Shown here in pieces: positions 6,953 through 45,236 of a stretch of 48,478 nucleotides of DNA; positions within the stretch are counted from its first letter, which is position 1, and each line of letters starts with the position of its first letter. The position numbers were made by a program, and so were the translations under genes. Location of the stretch: assembly GCF_015523185.1 (NCBI RefSeq), contig NZ_WAKV01000030.1:1-48478 (forward strand). The letters are read 5' to 3'. Below the pieces are notes generated by a model, which did no database searches, was not told the DNA's origin, and worked only from the letters and a program-made list of their open reading frames with translations. The stretch comes from Thermococcus sp. (lineage in GTDB: Archaea; Methanobacteriota_B; Thermococci; Thermococcales; Thermococcaceae).

Positions 6953-7927
6953 TCACTCAACCCTGAAGGTTATTCCCTTTTCCCTCGCTTTCCTCTCGAC
7001 CTGAAGGCGGAACTGGCAGGCCTTGCATATCTCCCCTGTTGTAGGCTGTCCACATATCTTACAGCGGTTAAGTTCGCTGGTTTTCTTGGTGTATGTCTTC
7101 GCGATGAGCGGGAAGAGCTTGTCGTAGCTCCGCAGGATTTGATACTTCGTTCCCGGGTGTCTCTCCTCCATCTCGTTGAGCCAGTCCCTTATCTCCGCCC
7201 TGAATGCTTCAACTGCGTAGGGGCACTCGCTAAGGTCAACCTCAATGTTGTTCAGAACAGCGTAGAGGACTATCTCTTTCTCTGGAATCTCACGGAGGGG
7301 CTTTATCCTCGGAACTAACTCTGGGTGGATTTCCTCGTAATAGGGACCGGTTCTTCCGAGTCTGGCTATATCCCCGCGGAGAATGTTCATTATGAACATC
7401 TGGACTTCATCATCAAGGTTATGGCCTACCGCTAATTTATCCGCCCCGACGTCCTTGGCCGCGTAGTTTAAAAGCCACCTTCTCCAGACGCCACAGTAGG
7501 AACAGGCACCGACTCTTTCACCCTTCTCGAAGCTCCCCATTATCTCGACTGTCTCGTCCAATGTAAAGCCGATGTATTCCTTGAAGGAATAAATTCTGTG
7601 CTCTATGCCGAGTTTTTTCGCGTTCCTCTTCGCTATCTCCACACTCGGTGGTCTGTACCCGGCTATGCCCTCATCTATCGTTATAGCGACGAGCTCAAAG
7701 GGGAACTTCTCGCGGAGCTTTGCTAGGAGGTGCATCAGAACCACGCTGTCCTTCCCACCGGAAACTCCAACCGCTATCCTCTCGCCCTTTTCGATTAGGT
7801 GGTACTTCTTGACTGTTTCCTTGAACTTCTTCTCCACCATCTCGTTAAAGTGCTTGTGGCAGTAGTAGAGTCCGCTGTAGCGTGCGTGGTAAACCGCTGG
7901 CCTTTCGCACTTTGAACACTTTGACAT
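6953..7927 (-). CDS. tRNA 2-thiolation enzyme, Ncs6/TtuA family
   Basis: ATP-dependent tRNA sulfurtransferase of 324 residues that thiolates uridine in tRNA. The pyrophosphatase loop SGGKDS is in VGVSGGKDSVVLMHLLAKL. Zinc-finger cysteines occur at both ends (CSKC and CHKHF at the N-terminus, CKICG and CKAC at the C-terminus). The three cysteines that hold an iron-sulfur cluster in this family fit CSYC and SECPYAVE. A second member of the family is at 37106-38026. That one looks like TtuA (position 54), so this copy is more likely the wobble-uridine enzyme (NcsA/Ncs6); the division is inference. It is divergent from the RecA-like gene. Confidence 0.85.
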   Translation of the reverse strand: MSKCSKCERPAVYHARYSGLYYCHKHFNEMVEKKFKETVKKYHLIEKGERIAVGVSGGKDSVVLMHLLAKLREKFPFELVAITIDEGIAGYRPPSVEIAKRNAKKLGIEHRIYSFKEYIGFTLDETVEIMGSFEKGERVGACSYCGVWRRWLLNYAAKDVGADKLAVGHNLDDEVQMFIMNILRGDIARLGRTGPYYEEIHPELVPRIKPLREIPEKEIVLYAVLNNIEVDLSECPYAVEAFRAEIRDWLNEMEERHPGTKYQILRSYDKLFPLIAKTYTKKTSELNRCKICGQPTTGEICKACQFRLQVERKAREKGITFRVE

Positions 7928-29254: not shown

Positions 29255-29312
29255 CGCGATGATGAGTGATGGGCGAACCGAGTGGTGAGGAAGGAAAGGT
29301 GATCGCTGAGCA
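29255..29312 (+). ncRNA. C/D-box guide sRNA (1 of a tandem pair)
   Basis: Box C ATGATGA at 29259-29265, D' CCGA at 29278-29281, C' GTGGTGA at 29282-29288 and D CTGA at 29306-29309. The C-D' guide is the usual 12 bases (29266-29277). The C'-D guide is 17, longer than normal, and the D'-C' spacer is zero, so the internal boxes are less certain. A TTTTTAAG element at 29226-29233 lies about 27 bases upstream of the predicted start. The last nine bases of the second guide, AGGTGATCG, are complementary to CGATCACCT, the conserved 3' end of archaeal 16S rRNA. The fifth base from box D would direct methylation to the C in CGAUC, near E. coli position 1533 (inference). Confidence 0.78.
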
Positions 29313-29344
29313 ACCCTTTTAAGTTTCCCTTTCAACTTTTTCAG

Positions 29345-29398
29345 GGATGATGAGTTCAGCCTTGTCCGAGCTGTGACGAGGGAGTGACGGACTGACCG
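29345..29398 (+). ncRNA. C/D-box guide sRNA (2 of a tandem pair)
   Basis: Fully canonical spacing: C ATGATGA 29347-29353, 12-base guide, D' CCGA 29366-29369, 3-base spacer, C' GTGACGA 29373-29379, 12-base guide, D CTGA 29392-29395. A TTTTAAG element at 29317-29323 is about 25 bases upstream and starts right after the preceding sRNA. The first guide contains TTCAGCCTTG, complementary to CAAGGCTGAA. That matches a conserved archaeal 16S segment upstream of the 915 region, predicting 2'-O-methylation of a G near E. coli position 902 (inference). The second guide predicts a target UCCGUCACUCCC. Confidence 0.9.
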
Positions 29399-34358: not shown

Positions 34359-34378
34359 CTACTCTGTTGGTGAAGGCG

Positions 34379-36310
34379 GTGAAGTTCATCTTCGGAATCC
34401 ACAACCACCAGCTCCTTGGGAACTTCGGCTGGGTTTTTGAAAATGCTTACGAAAGGGCTTACAGGCCCTTCCTTGAGACCCTTGAGGAATACCCTAACAT
34501 GAAGGTTGGCGTGCACTACTCCGGCCCGCTCCTTGAGTGGATTGCCGAACACAGACCCGAGCACATAGAGCTTTTGAGAGACCTCGTTAGAAGGGGCCAG
34601 CTAGAGATAATGGTTGCCGGTTTTTATGAGCCTGTTCTAGCCTCTATCCCCGAAGAGGACAGGATAGAGCAGATTAACCTCCTCAAGGGCTTCGCAAAAA
34701 GGCTCGGCTACGATTCAAAGGGCCTCTGGCTGACTGAACGCGTCTGGGAGCCGGAACTTGTGGGGGCCTTAAAAAAGGCAGGGATAGAGTACGTAATCGT
34801 TGATGACTACCATTTCCTCAGCGCCGGCCTGCCGAAGGAAGACCTTTACTGGCCGTACTACACAGAAAACAACGGTGAGAGCATAGCTGTCTTCCCGATT
34901 GACGAGAGACTGCGCTATTTGATTCCGTTCCGCTCCTTTAAGAGGACCCTTGAGTATCTCCACTCACTTGATGACGGCGATGAGAGCAAGGTCGCCGTTT
35001 TCCACGACGATGGGGAAAAGTTCGGGGTCTGGCCGGGAACCTACGAGTGGGTCCACGAAAAAGGCTGGCTGAGGGAGTTCTTCGATGAAGTTTCGAGCGA
35101 CGAAAAAATAGAGGTTCTCCTCTACTCCGAGTATCTTTCGAAGTTCAGGCCGAGGGGGCTTGTCTACCTTCCGATAGCCTCTTACTTCGAGATGAGCGAG
35201 TGGTCTCTGCCGGCTGAACAGGCGAGGCTCTTCGTTGAGTTCGTGAACTGGTTGAGGGCTCGGGGCGTTTTTGAGCGCTACCGCGTCTTCGTCCGCGGTG
35301 GTATATGGAAGAACTTCTTCTTCAAGTATCCTGAGGGCAACTTCATGCACAAGAGGATGCTCATGGTGAGTAAACTCGTAAGAAACAACCCTAAGGCGAG
35401 GCGCTTCATTCTCAGGGCCCAGTGCAATGATGCTTACTGGCACGGCATTTTTGGGGGCATTTATCTCCCCCACCTCCGCAGGGCAGTGTGGGAGAACATC
35501 ATAAGGGCCAACACTTTCGTTTCCACTGGAAGCTTTGTGGGGGATATTGACTTCGATGGCAGAGATGAGGTCTTCATCGAGGGCGAGAACTTTTACTACG
35601 TCTTCAAGCCGGGCCTCGGCGGTTCCCTCGTTGAACTCAGCTCAAAAAACAAGCTCGTTAACTATGCCGATACTTTAACGAGGTGCTACGAGCACTATCA
35701 CTCCGTTGGAAGTGCCGTTCCAGAAGATACCGGGGAAGGTGTTGAGAGCATCCACGAGCTCTCTGAGGGCATACCTGAGGACGTAAGAAATGAGATTGCC
35801 TACGATTCAGTTAGGAGAACCCTTCTCCAGGACAGGTTTCTGAAGCCGAAAACAACCCTTGATGCTTTCAGACTGAATCGTTATGACTCCCTGATGGACT
35901 TCTCGAACAAGCCCTACGGTTATTCCCTTGAAGACGGAAAGCTGAGGCTCCGGAGAAGCGAAAGTGAGTTTTCGGTTGTTAAAACGTTTAAGCCCACCGA
36001 TGAGGGTTTTGTAGTCGAGTACTCCGTTGCCGGGTGCGGAACCTTCGCTGTCGAGCTCAACGTAGCGGTCCACAGCGTAATGGAAAGTCCGGAGGAGCTT
36101 CACGGTTCCGGGATTGAGGTTAATGACAGATACGCCGTCGGCAGATTCTCCATCGAGCTCGATAGTGAGGCAAGGATATGGAAGTTCCCGGTAAAAACGC
36201 TGAGCAAAAGCGAAAGGGGATGGGACTTCATACAGCAGGGGGTGAGCTACACCTTCCTGTTTCCTGTTGAGGGGACACGGTCTTTTTCAGTAGCATTCAG
36301 AGAGCTCTAG
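34379..36310 (+). CDS. 4-alpha-glucanotransferase, glycoside hydrolase family 57
   Basis: GH57 enzyme of 643 residues that transfers alpha-1,4-glucan chains, used in maltodextrin and starch use in Thermococcales. The N-terminal FIFGIHNHQLLGNFGWVFE is the family start. The nucleophile E120 lies in GLWLTERVWEPE, and the acid/base D211 in AVFHDDGEKFGVWPG. The C-terminal beta domain starts near GDIDFDGRDEVFIEG. Compared with the Thermococcus litoralis enzyme the catalytic residues are offset by three, which supports the GTG at 34379 with GGTGAAGG in front. Earlier TTG/GTG codons are alternatives. It is controlled by the Tgr site upstream. It shares a CTAG stop overlap with the convergent DUF257 gene. 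Confidence 0.93.
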   Translation: MKFIFGIHNHQLLGNFGWVFENAYERAYRPFLETLEEYPNMKVGVHYSGPLLEWIAEHRPEHIELLRDLVRRGQLEIMVAGFYEPVLASIPEEDRIEQINLLKGFAKRLGYDSKGLWLTERVWEPELVGALKKAGIEYVIVDDYHFLSAGLPKEDLYWPYYTENNGESIAVFPIDERLRYLIPFRSFKRTLEYLHSLDDGDESKVAVFHDDGEKFGVWPGTYEWVHEKGWLREFFDEVSSDEKIEVLLYSEYLSKFRPRGLVYLPIASYFEMSEWSLPAEQARLFVEFVNWLRARGVFERYRVFVRGGIWKNFFFKYPEGNFMHKRMLMVSKLVRNNPKARRFILRAQCNDAYWHGIFGGIYLPHLRRAVWENIIRANTFVSTGSFVGDIDFDGRDEVFIEGENFYYVFKPGLGGSLVELSSKNKLVNYADTLTRCYEHYHSVGSAVPEDTGEGVESIHELSEGIPEDVRNEIAYDSVRRTLLQDRFLKPKTTLDAFRLNRYDSLMDFSNKPYGYSLEDGKLRLRRSESEFSVVKTFKPTDEGFVVEYSVAGCGTFAVELNVAVHSVMESPEELHGSGIEVNDRYAVGRFSIELDSEARIWKFPVKTLSKSERGWDFIQQGVSYTFLFPVEGTRSFSVAFREL

Positions 36311-36960
36311 GCTCGGATTGTAAGGCCCTCTGCGTCCCTTTTTATTGACTTGACGACCTTAAACTCTCCTATTCTTCCGTGGGAGGATACCCTTATGATT
36401 GTTGTCGCGATGTCCTCGATAAGGTTGAGGAGGTACCTGTGTTCTTCTCCGAGGAGGGGTGCTTTTATGAGATGTACTGTAAGTCTATCCCTGTTGCCAA
36501 CGTACTCTGAGAGCAGACTGAGCGCCAAATGAACGCTCTTAGGTAGTACGTCCGATGTTACAAAGAGCTTCTCCACTCCCAGGGCAATGGTTAAAACCGG
36601 CGAGTTCTCCTTTAGGAATCTCTCATACGCCTCCTTGAACTTCCCAATTAAAATGACGGGCTCGGTCAAGTCGCTTATCCAGGCTATAACGTTTCCCCTT
36701 TTTACACGTCCTCCTACTTTTATCACATCGGTTGTGTCAAAACACTCACAGTCCAGACCGGCGAGCCTTGCCTTTGAAGTAAGTATGTGGAATGAATCGA
36801 CGACGTCAACTATGAGCACGGTATAACCCTTCGAACGGCCCCAGCTCATAAGCTGGTGGAGTCCAAAGTACTGGTCTTTCAAATCCATTCTCTCCACGAG
36901 GACTATCTCCCCCAGTTGAAGTGAATCCCAGAGCTCTCTCATCAGGTCCCCTGTTGTCAT
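36307..36960 (-). CDS. DUF257 family protein (RecA-like fold, Thermococcales-specific)
   Basis: A 217-residue protein of the DUF257 family, found mainly in Pyrococcus and Thermococcus and without known role. The pattern SLQLGEIVLVERMDLKDQYF, WGRSKGYTVLIVDVVDSFHIL, DTTDVIKVGGRVKRGNVIAW and PVLTIALGVEKLFV is typical. It resembles a RecA-like layout but has no Walker A Gly-Lys-Ser/Thr. The ATG at 36960 follows GGAGGGAG, and TTTTATATACC (about 37010-37020 on the plus strand) is the TATA element. The last codon overlaps the GH57 stop in a shared CTAG. Confidence 0.75.
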   Translation of the reverse strand: MTTGDLMRELWDSLQLGEIVLVERMDLKDQYFGLHQLMSWGRSKGYTVLIVDVVDSFHILTSKARLAGLDCECFDTTDVIKVGGRVKRGNVIAWISDLTEPVILIGKFKEAYERFLKENSPVLTIALGVEKLFVTSDVLPKSVHLALSLLSEYVGNRDRLTVHLIKAPLLGEEHRYLLNLIEDIATTIIRVSSHGRIGEFKVVKSIKRDAEGLTIRA

Positions 36961-37055
36961 TATAGTCTCCCTCCAAGCTGAGACTTATCATTTTTCTTTT
37001 TTTACATTTAGGTATATAAAAAATTCGAAATACCATCATCGCTGGAAATATGTCC

Positions 37056-37112
37056 GGGCCTCAGATAGGGTGGCCATCGTCACATTTCGGGGCCCGAAAT
37101 TTTCATCATCGA
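37056..37112 (-). ncRNA. C/D-box guide sRNA overlapping the ttuA stop codon
   Basis: On the minus strand: C ATGATGA (37109-37103), 12-base guide, D' CCGA (37090-37087), 3-base spacer, C' GTGACGA (37083-37077), 12-base guide, D CTGA (37064-37061). All spacings are canonical. The ttuA stop TGA (37108-37106) is part of box C. The RNA could be processed from the ttuA message or start at a TATA-like CGATAAAC within the last ttuA codons. Predicted targets are GGCCCGAAAUUU (methyl at its fifth base, C) and AUAGGGUGGCCA (fifth base, G). A T-rich stretch follows on the same strand. Confidence 0.88.
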
Positions 37113-38026
37113 CTCACCCTGAAGTTTATCGGCTTCTCCAACCTCCAGAACCTGCAGAAGGAACAGACCTCACCGCTCGACGGCATGCCGCAGATTTTAC
37201 ACTCCCTTAGTTCTGCTTCATATAGTTCTGCCTCAAAGAGGTGCTTTTTCCTCAGGAAGCCCTTGACGAAGTTTATCTTCGTTCCGGGCCTCTTCTCCTC
37301 CATCTCGTTGAGTATCTCCTTGTACTCGATTGTCGTGGCACCCACTGCGTGGGGGCACTCCTCCATCATGTAGTCTATTCCGCTCGCCAAAGCGTATGCA
37401 ACGACTTCCCTCTCTGTGACCTCGTAGAGCGGCTTGACCTTCTTCACGAGCTTGCCGTTGAACTGGCTCGGCGTTACGGGCCCCTGCTTCGCTAAATACT
37501 GAGTATTCCAGTGCATCATGTTGCTGAAGATGAAGCTCGCCTCGTCGTCGAGGTTGTGGCCGGTGGCAACGACGTCGAATCCGTTGTCGTAGGCGAACTT
37601 GTTGAAGATGTAGCGCTTCGTTAAGCCACAGTAGGAGCAGGTAGGTCTACGCGTCCTCACCTCGCCTATGCCCTTACCGAGCAGTTCCTTGACGCGGACG
37701 ATGTGGAGAGGGGCACCTATCTTCTCGCACTGCCTCTTTGCATACTCCTCGCTCTTCTCACTGTACTTGCCAATGCCGAGGTTTATGTGGAGGCACTCGA
37801 TGTTGTAGCCGAGCTTTTTAAGGATGTAGGCGGTAACGGCTGAGTCCTTTCCGCCCGAGACGACCACCAGAACCTTCTCATCAGGTTTCAGCATCTTGTA
37901 TCTCTCTATCGTCCGCTTTACCTTTCTCTCAAAGTATTCCTTGAAGTGCTCCTCACAGAGGTACATTTTTGGGTAGTGGAGCTTGATAAAGGCTGGTTTA
38001 TCACAGAACTTGCATTTCACGGGCAT
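37106..38026 (-). CDS. ttuA: tRNA-5-methyluridine-54 2-sulfurtransferase (TtuA)
   Basis: Thiolates uridine 54 of tRNA to raise heat stability. The 306-residue protein starts CKFCDKPAFIKLHYPKMYLC, with the N-terminal zinc finger. The PP-loop is VVVSGGKDSAVTAYILKKLGY. The cluster-binding cysteines lie in RRPTCSYCGLTKRY and MEECPHAVGATT. The C-terminal zinc finger is CKICGMPSSGEVC..C. The sequence closely follows the Pyrococcus horikoshii TtuA whose structure is known, more than the paralogue at 6953-7927 does. GGTGGAGAG precedes the ATG, and TTAAAAG (about 38062-38068) is the TATA element. A guide RNA begins at its stop codon. Confidence 0.92.
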   Translation of the reverse strand: MPVKCKFCDKPAFIKLHYPKMYLCEEHFKEYFERKVKRTIERYKMLKPDEKVLVVVSGGKDSAVTAYILKKLGYNIECLHINLGIGKYSEKSEEYAKRQCEKIGAPLHIVRVKELLGKGIGEVRTRRPTCSYCGLTKRYIFNKFAYDNGFDVVATGHNLDDEASFIFSNMMHWNTQYLAKQGPVTPSQFNGKLVKKVKPLYEVTEREVVAYALASGIDYMMEECPHAVGATTIEYKEILNEMEEKRPGTKINFVKGFLRKKHLFEAELYEAELRECKICGMPSSGEVCSFCRFWRLEKPINFRVSR

Positions 38027-45182: not shown

Positions 45183-45236
45183 GGGATGATGAGTCTGGAG
45201 CCCCCTGAGTAATGATGAGGTTTCGCGGGGCTGACC
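45183..45236 (+). ncRNA. C/D-box guide sRNA between hisS and the coiled-coil gene
   Basis: Textbook form: C ATGATGA 45186-45192, 12-base guide GTCTGGAGCCCC, D' CTGA 45205-45208, 3-base spacer, C' ATGATGA 45212-45218, 12-base guide GGTTTCGCGGGG, D CTGA 45231-45234. Both internal boxes match the consensus perfectly. TATA-like elements at 45146-45153 and 45163-45168 lie upstream. Predicted targets are GGGGCUCCAGAC (fifth base C) and CCCCGCGAAACC (fifth base G). The coiled-coil gene begins 5 bases after box D. Confidence 0.93.

Follow-up and report, generated by a model that had tools for sequence, protein, structure and literature searches.

The ttuA gene of Thermococcus sp. ends inside an archaeal C/D-box guide RNA, sR47, whose box C contains the ttuA stop codon, and across the family the form of this guide RNA is kept at one orthologous locus while the host gene, the reading frame and the strand change. 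We consider it very probable that sR47 is an ordinary two-guide C/D sRNA produced from the 3' end of its host mRNA. The form found in the window (the whole 48,478-nt stretch that was analysed) probably arose through the deletion of a block of genes. The kind of overlap is already known; what is new is the evolutionary series, and with it the history, at the sR47 locus, and no description of the ttuA-sR47 locus was found in the open-access literature.

According to a 2021 review reporting Tripp 2017 (PMC7994747), an overlap with the 3' end of the upstream gene, its stop codon included, is seen for 25% of archaeal C/D sRNA genes; each of the four boxes can hold the stop, and box C does so in almost half of the cases. 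The window resembles the overlaps reported there in having the host stop in box C, the commonest case, whereas here a single orthologous sRNA is tracked through 33 genomes, which gives a series with three boxes that can hold the stop (C, D' or C'), two hosts on the same strand and one form on the opposite strand.

sR47 at the 3' end of ttuA

Positions 37059-37113 of the minus strand match the Rfam family sR47 (RF01131) at 48.0 bits (E 5.2e-08), above its gathering score of 40, and the window copy covers 55 of the 55 model positions. sR47 is an archaeal C/D-box sRNA, a class that guides 2'-O-methylation. The protein encoded immediately upstream scores 531.8 bits with NF049949 (cut-off 450) and matches the PH0300 structure chains with an E-value of about 1e-164. 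The features of the locus are the following:

34367..36310, plus strand: convergent gene (open reading frame; synteny), which we take to be glucanotransferase-like, GH57
36307..36960, minus strand: DUF257 gene, downstream of sR47 (PF03192, 122.1 bits)
37059..37113, minus strand: sR47 (RF01131) C/D-box sRNA (Rfam gathering match; terminal-stem covariation over 32 copies)
37061..37064, minus strand: box D, CTGA (sequence)
37065..37076, minus strand: D guide TGGCCACCCTAT, 12 nt (sequence; pairing with 23S CUAGGGGGGCCC in relatives, mismatch here)
37077..37083, minus strand: box C', GTGACGA, consensus TGATGA (sequence)
37087..37090, minus strand: box D', CCGA, consensus CTGA (sequence)
37091..37102, minus strand: D' guide AAATTTCGGGCC, 12 nt (possible target 23S rRNA GGCCCGAAA)
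37103..37105, minus strand: second in-frame TGA directly after the ttuA stop (sequence, open reading frame)
37106..37108, minus strand: ttuA stop TGA inside box C (sequence, open reading frame)
37103..37109, minus strand: box C, ATGATGA (sequence and alignment of sR47 copies)
37106..38026, minus strand: ttuA, tRNA-5-methyluridine(54) 2-sulfurtransferase, 306 aa (NF049949; PH0300 structures)

Read along the minus strand, the order is ...AGT CGA TGA, the ttuA stop, followed by TGA AAATTTCGGGCC CCGA AAT GTGACGA TGGCCACCCTAT CTGA GGC, with boxes C, D', C' and D all present in order. A sequence-only reading of this DNA had placed a C/D guide sRNA at the ttuA end with the stop codon inside box C, and both points are confirmed by the Rfam match, by the order of boxes and guides and by the position of the TGA within box C. 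The same reading had called all spacings ideal, which holds for the spacings (12-3-12) but not for the boxes, since D' (CCGA) and C' (TGACGA) are each one base off consensus. These two changes (37077-37090, minus strand) presumably hit the positions of the usual U-U pair of the k-loop, leaving C-C here. Together with an altered distal part of the D' guide, they are what distinguishes the window copy from RF01131. Under the stricter filters of the many-genome search, the Rfam model gives the window copy 34.9 bits, below the cut-off. The folding of the window sRNA is unremarkable (z -0.49) and its D' guide is able to fold on itself.

As an sRNA of the L7Ae/Nop5/fibrillarin type, sR47 would guide 2'-O-methylation of rRNA, probably of the 23S molecule. 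It probably has no promoter of its own and would be made from the 3' end of the host transcript, which in the window is that of ttuA; the box C TGA serves at the same time as the ttuA stop. Going by the literature, the boxes would form k-turns, the sRNP proteins would shield the body of the RNA and nucleases would trim the rest. This is consistent with the review cited above, which describes C/D sRNAs as processed from longer transcripts and, reporting Tripp 2017, states that an own promoter is unneeded for most of them and that maturation depends on the boxes but not on the flanks (PMC7994747).

A scan of the window for bacterial-type promoters and terminators gave nothing useful, the motif models being bacterial and not archaeal. 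Just behind sR47, a TATA-like TTTATATA lies at 37011-37023 (minus strand), about 55 nt before the DUF257 start; we take it to match the archaeal promoter motif, and it is likely the own promoter of the DUF257 gene.

Distribution, host genes and stop positions

A sequence model, R1, was built from 20 sR47 copies and run on 94 family genomes, some of them incomplete, with stricter filters under which weak matches are lost; copies of 46 bits or more were called strong, the scores of the 20 training rows, the window copy among them, being circular. Strong copies were found in 33 of the 94 genomes and the next best match reached 28.3 bits. By genus, they are present in 17/61 genomes of Thermococcus, the window's genus, 7/9 of g12, 5/13 of g13, 4/7 of g14, 0/3 of g11 and 0/1 of g15, and in the remaining 61 genomes, incomplete ones included, the R1 search gave no strong copy. 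At an E-value of 0.001 the tally is 47/94, the 14 extra genomes having only weak matches (28.3 bits or less) that are taken for other C/D sRNAs. With the stricter filters, only 5 genomes give a match above the cut-off of Rfam's own sR47 model, out of 61 that include 37 from the window's genus. Genus g12 would be Pyrococcus, since the TtuA of G066 is identical to the PDB chains 3vrh_A and 5mko_A (P. horikoshii PH0300).

In the window's own genome, a second stretch (C48:42616-42673) obtains 36.1 bits with the Rfam model under strict filters, slightly above the window copy. Model R1, which was built with the window copy included, gives 57.0 bits to the window copy and 22.0 bits to C48:42616-42673, which is perhaps a related C/D sRNA.

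The gene upstream of the 33 copies is ttuA in 19 and a 744-aa membrane protein gene in 9; 4 copies lie on the opposite strand and 1 is degenerate. The 744-aa protein belongs to the PTPS_related membrane proteins (PF10131), and this host is unrelated to ttuA. The host stop codon falls within the sRNA in 20 of the 33 copies, namely in box C (8), on the first base of box C (1), in D' (6) or in C' (5), and the overlap that the sequence-only reading had proposed to look for in relatives is accordingly a recurrent one. The same-strand arrangements are distributed as follows:

ttuA host, stop in box C, 7 copies: G000, G035, G004, G082, G092, G032, G075
ttuA host, stop on the first base of box C, 1 copy: G019
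ttuA host, stop beginning 13-14 nt before the box C GATGA, 5 copies: G026, G078, G080, G074, G079
ttuA host, stop in D', 6 copies: G101, G100, G105, G098, G104, G066
744-aa host, stop in C', 5 copies: G033, G073, G091, G071, G067
744-aa host, stop in box C, 1 copy: G072
744-aa host, stop upstream of sR47, 3 copies: G068, G064 and G069, the gene end in G069 being placed by the tblastn end only

In G066, TtuA ends in ...KVSSTDEEPFGP; box C and the D' guide encode its final seven residues, which means that annotated protein C-termini, including that of the crystallised PH0300, can be translated guide-RNA sequence.

In four genomes (G113, G114, G115, G111) sR47 has the reverse orientation to ttuA and follows the convergent GH57-like gene, which is the nearest same-strand gene upstream of the inverted sR47 in genus g14. 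A transposase-like gene (L197 844-2127, minus strand), which we take to be TnpB-like by its zinc-ribbon motif, stands between ttuA and the inverted sR47 in G111. In the other three genomes, the last ttuA codons and the stop are antisense to the inverted sR47, an arrangement also reported for 16 potential snoRNAs of T. kodakarensis, which are antisense to the 3' ends of genes (PMC4247193); the passages of that work on these snoRNAs mention no orthologue in relatives that lies on the sense strand of the same gene. Decayed remnants of an inverted sR47, with the boxes broken as judged by eye, are seen at the ttuA 3' end of G110 and G116, where there is no strong copy, and the copy of G017 (L199 about 4137) lacks the box C side and keeps its second half.

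This variation bears on the meaningful pairing of a tRNA thiolase with a methylation guide that the sequence-only reading had suggested, and on a functional coupling in which a single transcript would supply tRNA thiolation and rRNA methylation at a fixed ratio, ttuA and sR47 being kept together for that purpose. In favour of such a coupling, none of the 33 strong copies is more than 5 kb away from ttuA and 19 of them sit directly at its end; this neighbourhood is, however, explained by the shared ancestry of the locus, and a membrane protein gene in the upstream position in 9 copies, the other strand in 4 and 61 of 94 genomes without a strong copy all speak against the coupling. We rejected the functional link on the host variation and regard it as very unlikely.

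The position of the stop in a box that forms a k-turn could also point to regulation, L7Ae on the k-turn or cleavage of the 3' end competing with termination in box C and thereby tuning the level of TtuA. Precedent comes from Sulfolobus, where L7Ae is described as repressing its own translation by way of a k-turn in the leader of its mRNA (PMC5539422). The stop nevertheless shifts between positions upstream of sR47, in C, in D' and in C', with no place seen to be kept, and 3' overlaps are reported as neutral or slightly negative for reporter transcription (PMC7994747), so that we hold such regulation to be unlikely. An ordinary sRNA sharing a stop codon with whichever gene precedes it remains the reading that we prefer.

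History of the locus

In relatives that carry a 4.5-kb block, ttuA and sR47 are separated by genes for a 164-aa protein, a GT2 protein (on the other strand), a 143-aa protein and the 744-aa PTPS_related protein, in this order; in G033 and G091, sR47 is in turn followed by DUF257 and GH57. The window has the order ttuA - sR47 - DUF257 - GH57, and the 4.5-kb block is absent. Among the 86 of the 94 genomes entered in the synteny table, the block is present in 18, and 9 of these 18 are without a strong sR47; for two of the 9, G112 and G087, the available stretch stops within the block. In two genera the 744-aa gene enters sR47 in an identical frame, its stop falling in C' and its C-termini reading MRRLSGPER and MRPLSGTDR, whereas ttuA joins sR47 in several registers. 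For this reason the join of the 744-aa gene looks older than those of ttuA, which were probably later and repeated.

We propose that the 4.5-kb block between ttuA and sR47 was probably deleted in the lineage of the window, bringing the own stop codon of ttuA onto box C. TtuA is 306 codons long in each of the 3 block-carrying Thermococcus genomes; among 6 box-C-type genomes lacking the block that were compared, 5 have this length as well and the sixth, G019, has 305. The 744-aa protein was sought in 9 fused genomes; no match was obtained in 7, and G004 and G104 gave only a 36-37% paralogue elsewhere. At the junctions, a microhomology of 7 nt is present in 3 of 9 block-plus genomes, a length that 3-4% of random stretches also give, and the remaining 6 share 4-5 nt, which is the length expected by chance.

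The direction and the number of these events are inferred from the TtuA tree and the gene orders. In the tree, which comprises 85 of the 94 genomes, G033 (with the block) is sister to G035 (without it) with support of 98/84, and at least 7 changes are needed for the state 'sR47 without block'. Given this sister pair and the many changes of state, recombination could also have brought the block back.

Reading-frame closure, constraint on the RNA and guide targets

In its common form, sR47 has one TGA in each frame, at offsets of 2 (in box C), 21 (in D') and 28 (in C') counted from GATGA. In the 32 of 33 copies considered for frame closure and for the stem described below (G017 was left out), all three frames are closed by the end of C' in 24, compared with a mean of 6.5% for shuffled stretches; the window copy, because its D' is CCGA, belongs to the 8 in which closure is incomplete. 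A gene joined to a C/D body would tend to end inside it, since the body holds several TGAs, and the sR47 series suggests in this way why stop codons often fall in C/D boxes. A stronger proposal, to which we give only tentative credit, is that the C/D body acts as a portable three-frame stop cassette, permitting host swaps and sRNA-encoded protein tails and seeded by microhomology between box C and gene overlaps of the form ATGAG. If it were true, upstream deletions or insertions would fuse almost any gene safely to sR47, which would pass between hosts while being itself conserved.

Three-frame closure as a general trait of C/D sRNAs found no support, as only 7 of 23 copies with perfect consensus boxes are closed by the end of C', in a sample that is small, biased and partly orthologous (9 from G000, 8 from G035 and 6 from G004). 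The longest same-strand frame ends inside a box in only 2 of these 23 copies (75 and 124 codons, perhaps not genes), and a stop in a box is thus not the rule in this biased sample.

The closing stem adjoining boxes C and D covaries. Of 29 distinct copies, 29 form pair 2, 24 form pair 3 and 19 form pair 4, values matched by 4, 0 and 15 of 2000 shuffles, respectively, kinship among the copies inflating such tests. Pair 3 is GC in 17, AT in 7 and TA in 3 of the 32 copies; the occurrence of three kinds of pair in several genera speaks for selection acting on the RNA. No covariation beyond shuffles was found in the other pairs, 5 and 6 being no better than shuffles and pair 1 hardly varying. The TtuA tails, for their part, differ in length and sequence among relatives. 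It had been supposed that the box cannot change without altering the end of the protein; the constraint appears to run the other way, the covarying terminal-stem pairs indicating that the RNA is the constrained part and the protein tail free.

No rRNA was found in the window's own assembly, and the pairing of the guides was checked on the rRNA of relatives. The D' guide of the window forms 9 contiguous Watson-Crick pairs with 23S GGCCCGAAA (about position 566 in relatives), equalled by 3 of 200 shuffled guides; with G-U pairs allowed, its best match lies elsewhere and is equalled by 21-38 of 200. The D' guides of 5 of 6 relatives form 10-11 Watson-Crick pairs with 23S GGCCCGAAAG, equalled by 3-5 of 200 shuffles; this site is at position 566 in G035, the putative target C being its fifth base, and it aligns to a gap in the E. 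coli 23S near 521. For G066, a G-U pair is needed at the 23S site and the match is no better than shuffles. Once G-U pairs are permitted, none of the D' matches, whether of the window or of its relatives, stands clearly above shuffles (21-139 of 200). The D' guides of G035, G004 and G104 also pair at 11 of 12 positions, with one mismatch, to a 16S site at about 532, with a better score than at the 23S site. The D guides of G026, G104 and G113 pair over 11 nt, G-U included, with 23S CUAGGGGGGCCC (about 1879, near E. coli 1764), and those of the window, G035 and G004 have a central mismatch to it; the match to CUAGGGGGGCCC is mostly no better than shuffles, that of the window's guide included.

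The degenerate D' and C' of the window copy, taken with the relics of G116 and G110 and the G017 copy without box C, could indicate that the ttuA 3' end holds a C/D-like remnant which is no longer an active guide in this genome. We find this quite unlikely, as boxes C and D, both 12-nt guides and three terminal pairs (one of them G-U) are intact and the 9 pairs to 23S are kept.

Some further observations concern related genes. A second thiolase-like paralogue, 40% identical to TtuA, is encoded at 7004-7921 (minus strand) of the window, and the TtuA match of G022 contains one in-frame TAG. The window also carries the C/D sRNA sR23 at 45184-45236 (plus strand, 74.3 bits), as well as sR1 and sR60 at 29255-29311 and 29343-29397 (plus strand), two C/D sRNAs in tandem with 31 nt between them, which therefore probably derive from one precursor.
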